DNA from: Thermoanaerobaculia bacterium
GTDB taxonomy: Bacteria > Acidobacteriota > Thermoanaerobaculia > UBA5066 > DATFVB01
Direction of reading: 5' to 3'
DNA: 32,285 nt
Assembly (NCBI GenBank): GCA_035260525.1
Contig: DATFVB010000368.1
Coordinates: forward strand, 1-32,285
Shown: positions 18,604 through 25,788 of the stretch, piece by piece
How positions within the stretch are numbered: the stretch's first letter is position 1
Layout of the letters: the number at the start of each line of letters is the position of its first letter
Position numbers and translations under genes: made by a program
Notes under the pieces: model-generated
Seen by the model: only the letters and a program-made list of their open reading frames with translations
Databases searched by the model: none
Told to the model about the DNA's origin: nothing

Positions 18604-20517
18604 ATGCGAACATTCGCCGCGGGAATCGTCTTCCTGCTGTCGATCGCGCTCGCCGCCCGGGCGCAGACGGTCGCGCCGGCGGACTCCGGCGCTCCGGACG
18701 ACGCCGCCTCCTCCGGCGACCGCGTGTCCCCGCTCCCCCCGCCCGCCACCCGGTCCGGGCTTCGCGGGCGCTGGTTCGAGTTCCTGTCGGCGTTGAACGA
18801 GGACGACTATGCCTCCGCGCGGCTCGCGAGCGCCGACCTGCTGCGCACCGCGAGCCGGGTCGGGATCTCTCGTCTGTCCGACTTCTCGCGCGCGGCGCTC
18901 TACCAGGCGCGGCTCGCCGACCGGCAGGGGAAGGCGCAGCGGGCGGACCTCGCCCTCGAGACGGCGATCCAGCTCGACCCCGAACTCGTCGACCCGCGCT
19001 GGGAGAAGGCGCGGCTCGCGTGGGGCCGCCGGCAATACGCGGACTCCGCGATCGCGCTCGGTGAGGCCGTCAACGCGCTCTTCGAGGCGGAGGAGTCGCG
19101 GCGGGAGTTCGTCTCGAACGCGGCTTTGCTGATCGGCGCGTCGTTCGCTCTCGCCGCCGCGGGGCTGGTCCTCGCGCTCATGCTCCGGCACTCGCGGCGG
19201 CTGTACCACTCGATCCGGGAGCGCGCGCAGCCGGCGTTCGGGCGGCGCGGCACGATCGCGGCCGCGCTCGTGCTCCTGGGGCTGCCGTTGTGGCTTTCGT
19301 TCGGGCCGTTCTGGCTCCTCCTCTACTGGTCCGTCCTCGTCTGCATCCACGCCGGGACGCGCGAGCGGATCGTCCTCGGGGCGGCGCTGCTCGTGGTCGG
19401 TTTTCTCGGTCCCCTCACCAAGGAGATCGCGGATCGGAATCTGATCGCGCGCTCGCCGCTCGTCTCGGCGGCGGTCGACCTCGAGGAGAAGAAGGAAGAG
19501 GGGGGATCCGTCGACCTGCTGCGGCGGGCGTCGGAGGTGTTCTCCGAGGATCCCGACGTGTGGTTCCTCCTCGGACGTTTCGCGCAGCGGCGCGACGACT
19601 ACGACGAGGCCGCGGCCGACTACGCCCGGGCCCTGAAGGGCGATCCGAAGTCGTTCCGCGCGATGATCGGGAGCGGCAACATCCATTTCTGGCAGGGGGA
19701 TCTCGGCGAGGCGATGGCGGACTATCGGGACGCGATCCAGGTGCGCCCGCGCTCGGCGCTGGCCTGGTACAACCTCTCGCTGGCGCAGGGCGACGCGTAC
19801 CTCTTCGACCAGCAGAGGGAATCGCTCGCCAACGCCCGGCGCCTCTCGCCGCGCGAGGTCGACCGGTGGATCGAGTCTCCGACGCTCGCGCGCGTGCTTT
19901 CGCTCGACTATTCGATCGAGGAGGCGGAACGCCGCTCCCGGCGCTGGACGCGCGAGGTCAAGAGCCAGTCTCTTCCGGGGCTCGGCCACGCGTATGCGCC
20001 CGCGGACCTCTTCTTCGTGCCGACGTCGATCGGACCCTGGCTCGCGCTCCTGGTCGGGCTCGTCCTGGGGGCGGTCGTCCGTTACCGCCGCTGGGGCGCC
20101 CGCGAATGCGCCCGCTGCGGAGCCGCGTTCTGCCGCCGTTGCAAGGTTCCCGGAAGCGCTGCGCTGTACTGCGCTCCGTGCGACCGGCTCCTGTCGAGCA
20201 AGGCCGCCGCGGACATCGCGTCGCAAGTGGCGCAGTCCGAGGAGGCGCGCCGCAACGTCCGGCAGCGCCAGCGGGAAGCGCGCTGGCTGTCGGTCGTCTT
20301 CCCGGGCGCGCGCCGGATCTCGGAGGGACGGCCCGCGACCGGCCTCCTGATCCTGTTCGGCTTCTTCTTCTTCGTGCTGGTCGCCTTGGTCGGCGGCCGG
20401 ATCTACCCGGTGCGGTCGCTCCCGACGGCGACGTATTTCCCGGTGCGCGAGATCGCCGCGACCGTCCTCGCCTTCGGCGTGTGGGTGGGGGCGAACCTCG
20501 GATTCGTGCGGAGCTGA
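18604..20517 (+). CDS. Membrane TPR protein with zinc-ribbon-like insert
   Basis: 637 residues with no named homologue that I recognise. Residues 1-20 are a signal peptide. A helical repeat part (about 50-160) comes next, then hydrophobic segments at about 173-195, 216-250 and 254-272. TPR-like repeats at about 312-415 include DPDVWFLLGRFAQRRDDYDEAAADYARAL and two further degenerate units. A helix at about 476-494 precedes six cysteines at about 502-525 in CxxC pairs (CARCG, CRRC, CAPC), a zinc-ribbon or B-box-like site. Two more helices follow at about 580-598 and 615-635. It may be a membrane assembly platform. The start directly abuts the upstream stop, and the DUF4388 gene begins three bases after its own. 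Confidence 0.8.
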   Translation: MRTFAAGIVFLLSIALAARAQTVAPADSGAPDDAASSGDRVSPLPPPATRSGLRGRWFEFLSALNEDDYASARLASADLLRTASRVGISRLSDFSRAALYQARLADRQGKAQRADLALETAIQLDPELVDPRWEKARLAWGRRQYADSAIALGEAVNALFEAEESRREFVSNAALLIGASFALAAAGLVLALMLRHSRRLYHSIRERAQPAFGRRGTIAAALVLLGLPLWLSFGPFWLLLYWSVLVCIHAGTRERIVLGAALLVVGFLGPLTKEIADRNLIARSPLVSAAVDLEEKKEEGGSVDLLRRASEVFSEDPDVWFLLGRFAQRRDDYDEAAADYARALKGDPKSFRAMIGSGNIHFWQGDLGEAMADYRDAIQVRPRSALAWYNLSLAQGDAYLFDQQRESLANARRLSPREVDRWIESPTLARVLSLDYSIEEAERRSRRWTREVKSQSLPGLGHAYAPADLFFVPTSIGPWLALLVGLVLGAVVRYRRWGARECARCGAAFCRRCKVPGSAALYCAPCDRLLSSKAAADIASQVAQSEEARRNVRQRQREARWLSVVFPGARRISEGRPATGLLILFGFFFFVLVALVGGRIYPVRSLPTATYFPVREIAATVLAFGVWVGANLGFVRS

Positions 20518-20519
20518 CG

Positions 20520-21803
20520 ATGGCGCTGCGCGGCACTCTCCGGGACTTCTCGCTGGGCGAGATCCTCCAGCTGATCAGCTTCCAGAGGAAGACCGGCGTC
20601 CTCAGCGTCGAGGGAGAGGAGGACACGGTCTCGGTCTCGTTCCTCGACGGGAAGGTCGTCGCCGCGGATTCGCTGAAGCGCCGGTTCGAGAACCGTCTCG
20701 GGAACCTCCTGGTGCGGGCCGGCAAGCTCACGCCCGCGGTCCTGAACGAGGTCCTCGAGGAGCAGAAACGGCTCGAGCAACGGATCGGATTCGTGCTGAT
20801 CAACCGCGGGCTCGTGTCGCCGGGGGACCTCCAGGCGGCGCTCCGCACCCAGATCCTGAATCTCATCTACCGCCTCTTTCGGTGGAAAGACGGACGGTAC
20901 TACTTTTCCCAGGAGAAGTCGGTCGAGTACGAGGTCGACCACTTCACCCCCGTCGCCACCGAGAACATCCTCATGGAAGCGGCGCGGATGAGCGACGAAT
21001 GGCCGCTCATCCAGAGTCGGATCCCCTCGCTCGACATCGTCTTTCGCCGGGCGCCGGGGACCGAGAAGCTCGAGATCGTCTCCGAAGAGGACGAGAAGCC
21101 GCCGGGGACGCTGGCCGTGCCGCCCGAGGAAGCGATCGTCTGGAAGCTGATCGACGGCAAGCGAACCGTCACGGAGATCACCGAGGCGACGTTCCTCTCC
21201 GATTTCGACGTCGTCAAGGCTCTCGACCGGATGCTCGCGCGGCACCTGATCGTCGAGGCCGAGCCGGAGAAGGCGGTTCCTCCTCCCGCTTCGTCGCCCC
21301 CGCCCGAGCCCGCGAAAGAGGTCATTCCGCCGAACACTCCGGCGGCGCTCGTCCTCTGGGGGGTCCTGGCCGCGCTGCTCCTCTTGTCGGTCGTGTTCCT
21401 GCCGCGCAATTCCTTGAACTTCGTGTTGAGCGGGGCGCGGGGGAGCTACCTGGCGCCCGTCGAGAACTCGATCAGCGTCGCCTGGCTCCAGCGGCTCGAC
21501 CGCGGGCTCGAGGTCTTCTACTTGAACGAGGGTTTCTATCCCGCCACACTCGCAGAGCTCGCGTCCGCCGCGGTCGTGGAGGGAGCCGTTCCGATCGAGG
21601 CGGGGACGGCGGGATACCGGTACATCCTCCGGGTCAACGACAACAAGTACGACCTCTACGGAAAGACGCTCGACGGCAAGCTCGATCCCAGCCTGAGCCT
21701 GAGCCGGACGCTCGATCCCGTCGCTCGACAGGCCATGATCACCGAAAGGCACAGGAAAGCCGAAGCCAGGAGAAAGCCGGTCAAGATCGACGTGGTGAAT
21801 TGA
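20520..21803 (+). CDS. DUF4388 / MshEN-like protein with membrane anchor and pseudopilin-like tail
   Basis: 427 residues. The N-terminal DUF4388 domain (MALRGTLRDFSLGEILQLIS, then GVLSVEGEEDTVSVSFLDGKVV) resembles the PatA N-terminal domain. It is followed by LGNLLVRAGKLTPAVLNEVLEEQ and GFVLINRGLVSPGDLQAAL, like the MshEN/GspE N-terminal domain, a known c-di-GMP binding fold. A winged-helix-like stretch (about 200-245) and a Pro-rich linker lead to a membrane helix at about 272-292. The tail (VFYLNEGFYPATLAEL, then YRYILRVNDNKYDLYG) resembles the globular part of type II secretion pseudopilins. The function is unknown; a signalling or assembly role is inferred. It is last in the operon, just before the dnaK promoter. 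Confidence 0.85.
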   Translation: MALRGTLRDFSLGEILQLISFQRKTGVLSVEGEEDTVSVSFLDGKVVAADSLKRRFENRLGNLLVRAGKLTPAVLNEVLEEQKRLEQRIGFVLINRGLVSPGDLQAALRTQILNLIYRLFRWKDGRYYFSQEKSVEYEVDHFTPVATENILMEAARMSDEWPLIQSRIPSLDIVFRRAPGTEKLEIVSEEDEKPPGTLAVPPEEAIVWKLIDGKRTVTEITEATFLSDFDVVKALDRMLARHLIVEAEPEKAVPPPASSPPPEPAKEVIPPNTPAALVLWGVLAALLLLSVVFLPRNSLNFVLSGARGSYLAPVENSISVAWLQRLDRGLEVFYLNEGFYPATLAELASAAVVEGAVPIEAGTAGYRYILRVNDNKYDLYGKTLDGKLDPSLSLSRTLDPVARQAMITERHRKAEARRKPVKIDVVN

Positions 21804-21835
21804 GCATGGGATGCTTAGGTCCTGTCGATTTATAC

Positions 21836-21864
21836 TTGACATGAAGAGGCTCATGTCCTAAAAT
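21836..21864 (+). promoter_or_regulatory. dnaK promoter with candidate HspR operator
   Basis: Perfect TTGACA (21836-21841), a 17-base spacer and TAAAAT (21859-21864). Inside it lies a perfect inverted repeat, GACATGA (21838-21844) and TCATGTC (21851-21857), separated by six bases. A repressor bound there would cover the -35 and the spacer. HspR, encoded downstream, is the obvious candidate. No CIRCE (HrcA) element is present. Confidence 0.75.
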
Positions 21865-21895
21865 GCGCCCGTGACCAGAAGGAGGGCGCAGTCTC

Positions 21896-23818
<1,923 letters not shown>

Positions 23819-23824
23819 AACCGG

Positions 23825-23851
23825 ACGGGGCCTGCGGGCCCCGTTTTTTTT
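23825..23851 (+). terminator. Rho-independent terminator after dnaK
   Basis: An 8-base GC stem (ACGGGGCC at 23825-23832 with GGCCCCGT at 23837-23844), a TGCG loop, then eight T. It begins six bases after the dnaK stop and 16 bases before the hsp20 ATG, so hsp20 expression depends on read-through or on an unseen promoter. Confidence 0.9.
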
Positions 23852-23867
23852 CCCCGCGCGAGGTGCG

Positions 23868-24302
23868 ATGGCGACGTTCCGCTGGAATTCCATGCAGGAG
23901 CTGATGGCGATCCAGGAGAAGATGAACCGCCTCTTCGAGGAGGTGCTCTATCGCCGGGAGTTTCCGGAGGGATCCGACGAGCGGGCCGCCTCGCGCTGGG
24001 CGCCGGCGGCCGACGCCTTCGAGTCGGCGCGCGAGTACGTCTTTCGGGTGGAGATCCCCGGCGTCTCCCTCTCCGACGTGAAGCTCGAGGTGGAGGACGG
24101 GAAGCTCCGCCTCTGCGGAACCCGTCCGGAAGTCGATCCCGCGAGCCGGTTCCTCCGGATGGAGCGCGTGTACGGCGATTTCGACCGCGAGTTCGAGATT
24201 CCCCACGACATCGACGCCGAGCGGATCTCCGCTTCGCTGTCGAGCGGCATCCTGACGATTCGCGCCCCCAAGAAGGGGACGCCCGCGGCGGAGGAACCGT
24301 GA
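23868..24302 (+). CDS. Small heat shock protein (Hsp20/alpha-crystallin family)
   Basis: 144 residues. The short N-terminal arm (MQELMAIQEKMNRLFEEVL) is typical of bacterial Hsp20. The alpha-crystallin domain runs from about residue 42 to 137: APAADAFESAREYVFRVEIPGVSLSDVKLEVEDGKL, split here by family strands, and ends with the conserved SSGILTIRAPKK (normally NGVLTI-type). It holds unfolding proteins in a refoldable state without ATP and hands them to DnaK. It lies just after the dnaK terminator, with a weak CGAGG ribosome site, and overlaps hspR by four bases (GTGA). Confidence 0.95.
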   Translation: MATFRWNSMQELMAIQEKMNRLFEEVLYRREFPEGSDERAASRWAPAADAFESAREYVFRVEIPGVSLSDVKLEVEDGKLRLCGTRPEVDPASRFLRMERVYGDFDREFEIPHDIDAERISASLSSGILTIRAPKKGTPAAEEP

Positions 24303-24664
24303 CGCGCAAGGACGGCTCGGTGCTGATCGGAGAGATCGCGCGCCGCTATTCGATCCACCCGCAGACGCTCCGGATGTACGAGCGGGAAGGGCTCATCCAG
24401 CCCGACCGCACCGAGGGGAATACCCGCCTTTACGGCGTCGAGACGATCGAGCGCCTCGAGATCATCCTCACGCTGACCCGCGATCTCGGGGTGAATCTCG
24501 CCGGGGTCGAGGTCATCCTGAACATGAAGGAAAGGCTCGAGAGCCTGCAGCAGCGCGCGGACCGGCTCGTGGACTACCTCAAGAAGGAGGCCGCCCGCCA
24601 CCGGCCGTCGGACGAGCGGTACGCGCTCGTCAAGCTGCCCGCCGGCGCCCTCCGCAAGCCGTGA
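24299..24664 (+). CDS. hspR: MerR-family heat shock repressor HspR
   Basis: 121 residues from GTG 24299. The MerR winged helix-turn-helix is clear: IGEIARRYSIHPQTLRMYEREGL, then IQPDRTEGNTRLYGVETIERL and a dimer helix beginning TRDLGVNLAGVEVIL. HPQTLRMYEREGL and LGVNLAGVEVIL are hallmarks of HspR as opposed to metal-sensing MerR proteins. By family knowledge HspR represses dnaK-type genes with DnaK as co-repressor. The candidate operator is the GACATGA inverted repeat in the dnaK promoter. It is coupled to hsp20 in front and to the sigma factor behind by GTGA overlaps. Confidence 0.93.
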   Translation: MTRKDGSVLIGEIARRYSIHPQTLRMYEREGLIQPDRTEGNTRLYGVETIERLEIILTLTRDLGVNLAGVEVILNMKERLESLQQRADRLVDYLKKEAARHRPSDERYALVKLPAGALRKP

Positions 24665-25497
24665 CGCGTGCGCGCGGCGAGGGCGGCAAGACCCTCACGC
24701 GATACCTTTCGGAGATCTCGCGATTCCCGCTGCTCGACCCTGCCGAGGAGCGGGAGCTCGGACGGCGGATTCGCCGGGGCGACGCCGCCGCTCTCCGGTC
24801 GCTGGTCGAGGCGAACCTGCGCTTCGTCGTCTCCTACGCCTCGCGGTTTCGCGGCGCCGCGCTTCCCCTCCTCGACCTCGTCCACGAGGGCAACCTCGGC
24901 CTGATGGAAGCCGCCCGCCGGTACGACCCGGCGCAATCCAACCGGTTCCTCTCCTACGCCGTTTTCTACGTGCGCGACGCGATCGTGACCGCGCTCCGGC
25001 GGCAGTCCGGTGCGCTGCGGCTTCCGCGCCGGCCCGGGCAGCTGCTCGCGCACCTCTACGAGACCCTGCAGAAGCTCGAAGGAGAGCTGCGGCGTCCTCC
25101 CTCGGAAGTCGAGATCGCCCGGGAATCGGGTTTGTCACCCCAGCAGGTGCGCTGGCTGCTCGCGCGGCTGCGAGGGGACGTGTCGCTCGACAGCGACGCC
25201 GGGCAGGAAGCCGTCGATGCGGAGCATCGCGGGCTCGTTCCCGGAGCCGAGGAGGCCGCCGTCCGTCACTCGACTCTTCGTGCGCTGAAGCAGGCGGTCC
25301 GAGGGCTCTTCCCGCGCGAACGCCTGGTCCTCGTCCGCCGCTACGGCCTCGACGGCCGCGAGCCGGAGACTCTGCGGGCGATCGCGGAGGCGCTGAAGAT
25401 CTCGAGCGAGCGGGTGCGCCAGATCGAGACGAAGGCGCTCGAGAAATTGCGATCCTCGGAGTCGCTGGGGGGGCGGCGGGCGAAGACCTCCGGCTGA
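24661..25497 (+). CDS. Sigma-70 family RNA polymerase sigma factor (group 2-like)
   Basis: 278 residues from GTG 24661, overlapping hspR by four bases. Region 1.2: TLTRYLSEISRFPLLDPAEE. Region 2: NLRFVVSYASRFRG, then LLDLVHEGNLGLMEAARRYDP and RFLSYAVFYVRDAI. Region 3: RRPPSEVEIARESGLSPQQV. Region 4: LFPRERLVLVRRYGLDG, then a helix-turn-helix TLRAIAEALKISSERVRQIETKALEKLR. There is no long region 1.1, so it is an RpoS/RpoH-like alternative factor. In region 2.4 the canonical TYAxWWIRQAI has become SYAVFYVRDAI, which could alter -10 recognition. Location behind dnaK-hsp20-hspR suggests a stress role. Confidence 0.9.
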   Translation: MTRARGEGGKTLTRYLSEISRFPLLDPAEERELGRRIRRGDAAALRSLVEANLRFVVSYASRFRGAALPLLDLVHEGNLGLMEAARRYDPAQSNRFLSYAVFYVRDAIVTALRRQSGALRLPRRPGQLLAHLYETLQKLEGELRRPPSEVEIARESGLSPQQVRWLLARLRGDVSLDSDAGQEAVDAEHRGLVPGAEEAAVRHSTLRALKQAVRGLFPRERLVLVRRYGLDGREPETLRAIAEALKISSERVRQIETKALEKLRSSESLGGRRAKTSG

Positions 25498-25788
25498 CCG
25501 AGCCGGCGCCGCAACGGGTCGCGCCGAAGCCTTGGCGAAGGCGGATGCATCGAGCCGGACGGGCGCGTACTGCCGGCCGGCGGCTCGACGGACGCTTTTC
25601 GGTACGCCTTCGCCGCCGGCCGGCAGTCCGCATCCCGTCGGGCTCGCGCCTCGCTGCGCCATCGGGTGGTTCTGAACCGAGAATCGCTGATCGCGAGAAT
25701 CGGAGCGGCGGGCGCCGCGACGTGTCGAGCCGAAGCCTTGGCGCGGCGGTGCATCGAGTCGGGCGGGCGAGCGCCTAGGGCCGTCGGC
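25498..25788. repeat. Convergent gap with direct repeats and a 16-base inverted repeat
   Basis: Two copies of an approximately 45-base repeat begin with GCCGAAGCCTTGGCG at 25523-25537 and 25729-25743 and continue with a TGCATCGAG block and a GGGCGGGCG-like end. Between them ACTGCCGGCCGGCGGC (25569-25584) pairs perfectly with its complement at 25612-25627 around a 27-base loop. No gene is supported. The stem may end the sigma-factor or VWFA transcripts, but it has no U tract. Confidence 0.7.

Follow-up and report, generated by a model that had tools for sequence, protein, structure and literature searches.

A candidate autoregulatory HspR/HAIR-like operator in the promoter of a dnaK-hsp20-hspR-sigma gene row of a Thermoanaerobaculia bacterium

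The window analysed in this study is a stretch of 32,285 nucleotides from a Thermoanaerobaculia bacterium (GenBank assembly GCA_035260525.1, contig DATFVB010000368.1, forward strand). The row of genes that begins with dnaK contains the following features:

21896..23818, + strand: dnaK, 640 aa (NF001413, 1037.8 bits, cut-off 648)
23823..23846, + strand: terminator-like hairpin with a T run in the gap between dnaK and hsp20; a similar hairpin is present in a congener (locus L046)
23868..24302, + strand: gene for a small heat-shock protein, Hsp20, 144 aa (PF00011, 70.3 bits, cut-off 20.8)
24299..24664, + strand: hspR-like gene for a MerR-family repressor, 121 aa (NF047375 HspR, 94.5 bits; PF13411)
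24661..25497, + strand: gene for a sigma-70 family factor with regions 1.2, 2, 3 and 4, 278 aa (profile matches)

The start of hspR overlaps the stop of hsp20, and the start of the sigma gene overlaps the stop of hspR, so these three genes run end to start. The original prediction had placed an hspR gene three genes downstream of the promoter under study. A MerR/HspR-like gene is indeed found downstream on the same strand, but as the third gene of the row, two after dnaK. The row was compared with the loci of 56 strong HspR relatives, and dnaK adjoins hspR in all 57 loci, the window included. A hairpin with a T run lies 3' of dnaK in 6 of the 57 loci by a simple test. Because of the hairpin in the window, hsp20, hspR and the sigma gene could be expressed less than dnaK, and the ratio of DnaK to HspR may be set in this way. 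The gene on the 5' side of dnaK, whose frame spans 19290-21803 (the true start is probably later), matches NF053729, a model of an MshE-related c-di-GMP-binding domain, at frame residues 469-521, and relatives of this frame are present in 29 of 57 loci.

The product of 24299-24664 remains below the equivalog cut-off of the NCBIfam model NF047375 (94.5 against 105 bits), although this is still its best NCBIfam match, and it contains a MerR-type DNA-binding domain (PF13411, 57.5 bits, cut-off 21.6). We therefore call it HspR-like, by its best match together with its position and the distribution of its predicted sites. Of 60 genomes searched (the own genome, that of one congener, and genomes of the order and class), 59 have a relative of HspR, 57 of them at E <= 3.2e-31 and two weakly (G019, 4.8e-8; G055, 8.9e-11); the same search of 60 genomes found none in G017.

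Four sequence elements were located in the 92-bp gap before dnaK, which is occupied by the palindrome of the original prediction and by a promoter:

21834..21856, + strand: predicted HAIR-like HspR operator, ACTTGA-CATGAAGAGGC-TCATGT, in a register conserved at the dnaK and clpB promoters of relatives; its core, CTTGACA-N7-GCTCATG, spans 21835-21855 with the dyad centre at 21845
21836..21841, + strand: -35 hexamer TTGACA, within the left arm of the operator
21838..21857, no strand: perfect repeat GACATGA-N6-TCATGTC, centre 21847.5
21859..21864, + strand: -10 hexamer TAAAAT, after a 17-bp spacer

The repeat was described beforehand as perfect and as overlapping the -35 box and spacer of a near-consensus promoter, and both statements hold: it has 0 mismatches, and it overlaps TTGACA-N17-TAAAAT (21836-21864). 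This promoter agrees with the consensus at 11 of 12 hexamer bases and was the only sigma-70-like promoter in a scan of 21700-25700. The HAIR consensus, the binding site of HspR, is given as CTTGAGT-N7-ACTCAAG (PMC7464140, PMC6102357, PMC2687793), and the window site shares 10 of its 14 bases. CTTGA stands at 21835-21839 and TCATG at 21851-21855, with 11 bases between them, and the right operator arm falls within the promoter spacer. A probe used in gel shifts of the Streptomyces coelicolor dnaK promoter holds ACTTGA-N11-TCAAGT (PMC2687793), to which the window matches at 11 of 12 bases. The right arm therefore matches as well, and it was a mistake to say that CTTGA alone resembles HAIR: when the site is read in the HAIR register, TCATG stands correctly placed where HAIR has TCAAG. 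The axis first proposed lies 2.5 bp off the HAIR dyad. When 250-bp stretches are randomised, 5-7% of them contain a match to at least 10 of the 14 HAIR bases; the case for an operator rests on conservation.

The upstream DNA of dnaK was compared in 54 of the 57 loci, in which the start of dnaK lies within the stretch (it does not in L051, L052 and L055). The conserved element of these promoters is ACTTGACA-N7-RCTNANGT, which is in the HAIR register and takes the form CTTGACATGAAGAGGCTCATG at 21835-21855 of the window. In most dnaK promoters it reads ACTTGACA-N7-RCTNAGGT and is followed by the -10 box. The gap from CTTGA to TCA(A/G/T)G is 11 bases in the relatives, as in HAIR, and xTTGAC-N10-TnA occurs in 44 of the 54 stretches. 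The dnaK sites of three relatives (L067, L079, L096) share 12 of 14 bases with HAIR, and two clpB promoters (L143, L155) share 13 of 14. A matrix trained on the same 54 dnaK stretches that it scored exceeded 15 bits in 52 of them, 8 of these matches, all of family f7, being in another arrangement; the scan found no site within 250 bp of dnaK in L075. The dnaK upstream DNA of these f7 loci (L064, L071, L072, L081, L082, L083, L085, L088) contains an element ending in CTCAGGTTT approximately 60-95 bases before dnaK, and several of them have a further HAIR-like site approximately 35-55 bases before the gene.

The distribution of the element among genes was then considered. The pattern ACTTGACA-N8-CTCANGT-NN-TA, with at most three mismatches, gave two matches in the window's own genome (3.80 Mb), one at dnaK (0 mismatches) and one 30 bases before clpB (1 mismatch), and the reversed pattern gave one per strand. 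A HAIR operator is expected at both dnaK and clpB of one genome, and the site is present at both here. The shorter pattern CTTGACA-N7-RCTNANGT, without mismatches, occurs in this genome and the congener at dnaK and clpB only; with up to two mismatches it is no commoner than its reversal (13+11 against 15+10 in the own genome, 9+11 against 26+24 in the congener). When the longer pattern was slightly loosened and searched in 19 genomes of the order with at most one mismatch, 28 matches were obtained in 17 genomes and none with the reversed pattern in the same 19. All 28 precede heat-shock genes, as judged by position and by the reading frames behind them (16 dnaK, 7 clpB, 3 groES and 2 hsp20). 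The design of the pattern drew on the dnaK sites and on the clpB site of the own genome, and the groES and hsp20 sites are independent of it. We believe that the site pattern is specific enough to call targets from sequence. A matrix built from 42 dnaK sites was applied to 52 clpB stretches, of which 27 scored higher than the best of 1040 letter shuffles; on the opposite strand 2 of the 52 did so. The other 25 stretches lay within the shuffle range, and these include the genomes with near-canonical HAIR at clpB (L143, L155). The proposal of an HspR operator in the dnaK promoter is thus well supported by conservation, by the dnaK and clpB sites of the own genome and by the scan of the order. 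It is very likely that the element is a HAIR-like operator to which HspR is predicted to bind. The sequence, its register, its conservation and the set of genes that carry the site are established by this comparison.

The repeat had also been taken for a non-standard operator whose specificity may have changed, and this part of the original prediction is not supported. Read in this way, the palindrome itself would be a genus-specific operator for HspR or another MerR-type dimer, with its axis shifted by 2.5 bp; we consider this unlikely in view of the clpB sites, a promoter-anchored symmetry test and the HspR alignment. The perfect 7-bp arms speak for it, as does GACATG-N8-CATGTC, which is kept in the dnaK promoter of the one congener. 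However, a palindrome as good as this (arms of 7, gap of 3-10) appeared in 2.5% of 4000 randomised copies of the 92-bp gap by letter shuffle and in 3.8% by a first-order Markov model, and 49 of 350 tiles of 92 bp from the window contain one, so that on its own the palindrome is weak evidence. In both congeners the clpB sites, ACTTGACATG...ACTAAGGT, do not have its right arm, the own clpB site among them, and near-canonical HAIR sites occur in some relatives.

For the symmetry test, sites were chosen by TTGACA-N17-TAnnnT hexamers without any condition on the right arm, which gave 61 sites (39 of 54 dnaK and 22 of 52 clpB stretches). The HAIR axis was the strongest symmetry of 18 axes tried (z 10.5 against spacer shuffles), with all five HAIR pairs kept in 3 of the 61 sites and four pairs in 17, and the axis first proposed was second (z 6.2). 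The perfect 7-bp palindrome occurs in 1 of the 61 sites, and 6 of its 7 pairs in one more. An earlier count on 70 sites was biased, since a pattern that fixes 2 of the 5 HAIR pairs had selected its 44 dnaK sites, and the matrix had selected 26 of the 52 clpB sites, with L147 and 25 others omitted. The partial symmetry on the first axis across relatives is real. In eight sites of four near genomes, a chosen set (dnaK and clpB of G000, G001, G003 and G005, with G007 of the same family omitted), the share of pairs kept is higher on this axis, 34 of 64 against 38 of 88 for the HAIR axis, in part because ACTTGACATG is common there.

An alignment of 83 sequences was used to ask whether HspR itself has changed. 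The helix HPQTLRxYEREGL varies little or not at all among them, and the window protein, with HPQTLRMYEREGL, agrees and shows nothing genus-specific. Over residues 8-82, the only departure of the window protein from a residue kept in at least 80% of the 81 others is I13, which is V in 65 of them. No genus-specific change was found in the recognition helix across these 83 sequences. For HspR of Mycobacterium tuberculosis, a role of R29 in HAIR binding has been reported (PMC10415612). When the repeat was sought across the own genome with at most three mismatches, 140 matches were obtained against 33 for the reversed control, and among the first matches listed the best after that at dnaK had 1 mismatch. 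The original prediction was to be given up if its motif occurred nowhere else and was not conserved. This is not the case for the motif in the HAIR register, and it is largely the case for the exact palindrome. In all likelihood the dnaK-promoter repeat is the usual HspR site in a slightly degenerate form, read with an offset, and that the perfect palindrome at 21838-21857 is probably incidental. This case shows that a palindrome found by eye may be real and yet lie in an offset register.

It could also be argued that only a sigma-70 promoter is conserved and that the likeness to HAIR is due to TTGACA in the left arm. TTGACA and the -10 box do make up the promoter consensus, and the left arm is indistinguishable from the -35 box. 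The right arm, in contrast, is no promoter element, yet its columns 19, 20, 22 and 25 are nearly invariant. The promoter-matched control rejects this explanation: among the 23 TTGACA-N17-TAnnnT sites of the own genome, 5 of 5 right-arm bases are found at dnaK and clpB alone, and the other 21 promoter-like sites have 0-3. We regard conservation of the promoter alone as very improbable. Control through HrcA and CIRCE, or an RNA hairpin in the leader, is scarcely credible: HrcA is encoded in the genome, but the CIRCE-like repeat before the own groES (17 of 18 bases, L125) looks unlike the dnaK site, CIRCE (TTAGCACTC-N9-GAGTGCTAA) was not seen by eye in the dnaK promoter, and the repeat, whose last base is 21857, lies wholly upstream of the -10 box and would not be transcribed from this promoter. 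The identity of the dnaK repeat with CIRCE was thus rejected.

The HAIR-like site was also looked for more widely, in named loci, of which two of the nearest carry the label Thermoanaerobaculia. Among 26 named loci examined (L213-L238, of 80), the start of dnaK and its upstream DNA were available in 19, and the dnaK matrix exceeded 20 bits in 13 of these. The remaining six (L213, L214, L216, L226, L228, L229) scored lower, and five of them contain TTGACA-N8-CTNA. CTTGACA-N7-ACTCAAG stands before dnaK in three loci of Acidobacteria (L219, L220, L222), and CTTGACA-N7-RCTAAAG in two loci labelled Bryobacteraceae. In four Nitrospirota-type loci (L233, L234, L236, L237), ACTTGA-N11-TCAA was found with an embedded -35 box, and the frame behind it reads as DnaJ-like from its translation. 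Locus L225 is labelled Arcobacter sp., and its HspR and dnaK promoter resemble those of Bryobacteraceae; this metagenome bin may be mislabelled. No HspR work on Acidobacteria was found in our searches of the open-licence literature, and an HspR operator is hereby proposed for a phylum for which those searches found none.

We take the element to be a probable autoregulatory operator of the dnaK-hsp20-hspR-sigma row. HspR binding, repression and feedback by DnaK are inferred from what is known of Streptomyces, mycobacteria and Helicobacter, and the row is presumed to be transcribed as a single operon. An HspR dimer would bind ACTTGACA-N7-GCTCATGT and cover the -35 box together with most of the spacer, which would deny the housekeeping sigma factor access to the promoter of the row; a second HspR site would do the same at clpB. 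DnaK co-represses with HspR in other bacteria (PMC10415612), and by analogy with Streptomyces and mycobacteria it may serve as co-repressor here. Repression would be lifted when unfolded proteins draw DnaK away or when heat unfolds HspR, and fresh DnaK and HspR would then close the feedback loop.

Similar arrangements are known in other bacteria. The HspR-HAIR system of Streptomyces (dnaK, clpB, lon) likewise has a MerR-type repressor encoded in the dnaK operon, with dnaK and clpB among its targets. The S. coelicolor dnaK promoter is described with three sites, whereas one was seen in the window. The window also differs from Streptomyces in that the inner bases are CA and GC where HAIR has GT and AC, and in that the left arm merges with a consensus -35 box. 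Its row contains hsp20 and a sigma gene, and neither grpE nor dnaJ lies between dnaK and hspR. In Helicobacter pylori, HspR is reported to cover both promoter boxes, -35 and -10, of the hspR operon (PMC6032397), which resembles the window, although hspR lies there in a cbpA-hspR operon. The left arm is similarly conserved in the Campylobacter jejuni sites, and the right arm is reported to differ between strong and weak sites (PMC7464140). HspR acts together with HrcA on groE in H. pylori and C. jejuni; in contrast, the groES stretch of the window's genome has CIRCE only. In Bifidobacterium, dnaK and clpB have HAIR and groEL has CIRCE (PMC9004370, Table 2). The consensus there is longer and flanked by A- and T-rich DNA, and dnaK is preceded by two sites in three of the four tabulated strains. 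Because the own groES has a CIRCE-like repeat and the genome an HrcA gene, the own groE is probably controlled by HrcA. In four genomes of the order (G012, G013, G014 and G017; L122, L123, L127 and L319), a HAIR-like site is followed directly by CIRCE before groES, which suggests joint control of groES by HspR and HrcA in some genera, as reported for Campylobacter.

The sigma gene behind hspR is a more unusual feature of the locus than the operator. In 31 of 57 loci a sigma-70 family gene lies 3' of hspR on the same strand. The two genes overlap in the window; elsewhere they are mostly 18-81 bases apart (range 0-268, extrapolated ends). The best NCBIfam scores of the sigma factor place models of the RpoD/RpoS type ahead of RpoH, and a search of the own genome with the sigma protein as query gave one other relative, at 34% identity. 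In open-licence literature searches we found no HspR system coupled to a sigma factor in a switch of the following kind. In this part of the Acidobacteriota, one and the same element would be HspR arm and -35 box, read by both HspR and sigma region 4, and the row of genes that it controls also encodes a sigma factor; we tentatively raise the possibility, which we hold to be a doubtful one, that these parts form a combined repressor-plus-sigma switch. If this is true, heat shock would lift the repressor and simultaneously make a sigma factor that redirects transcription.
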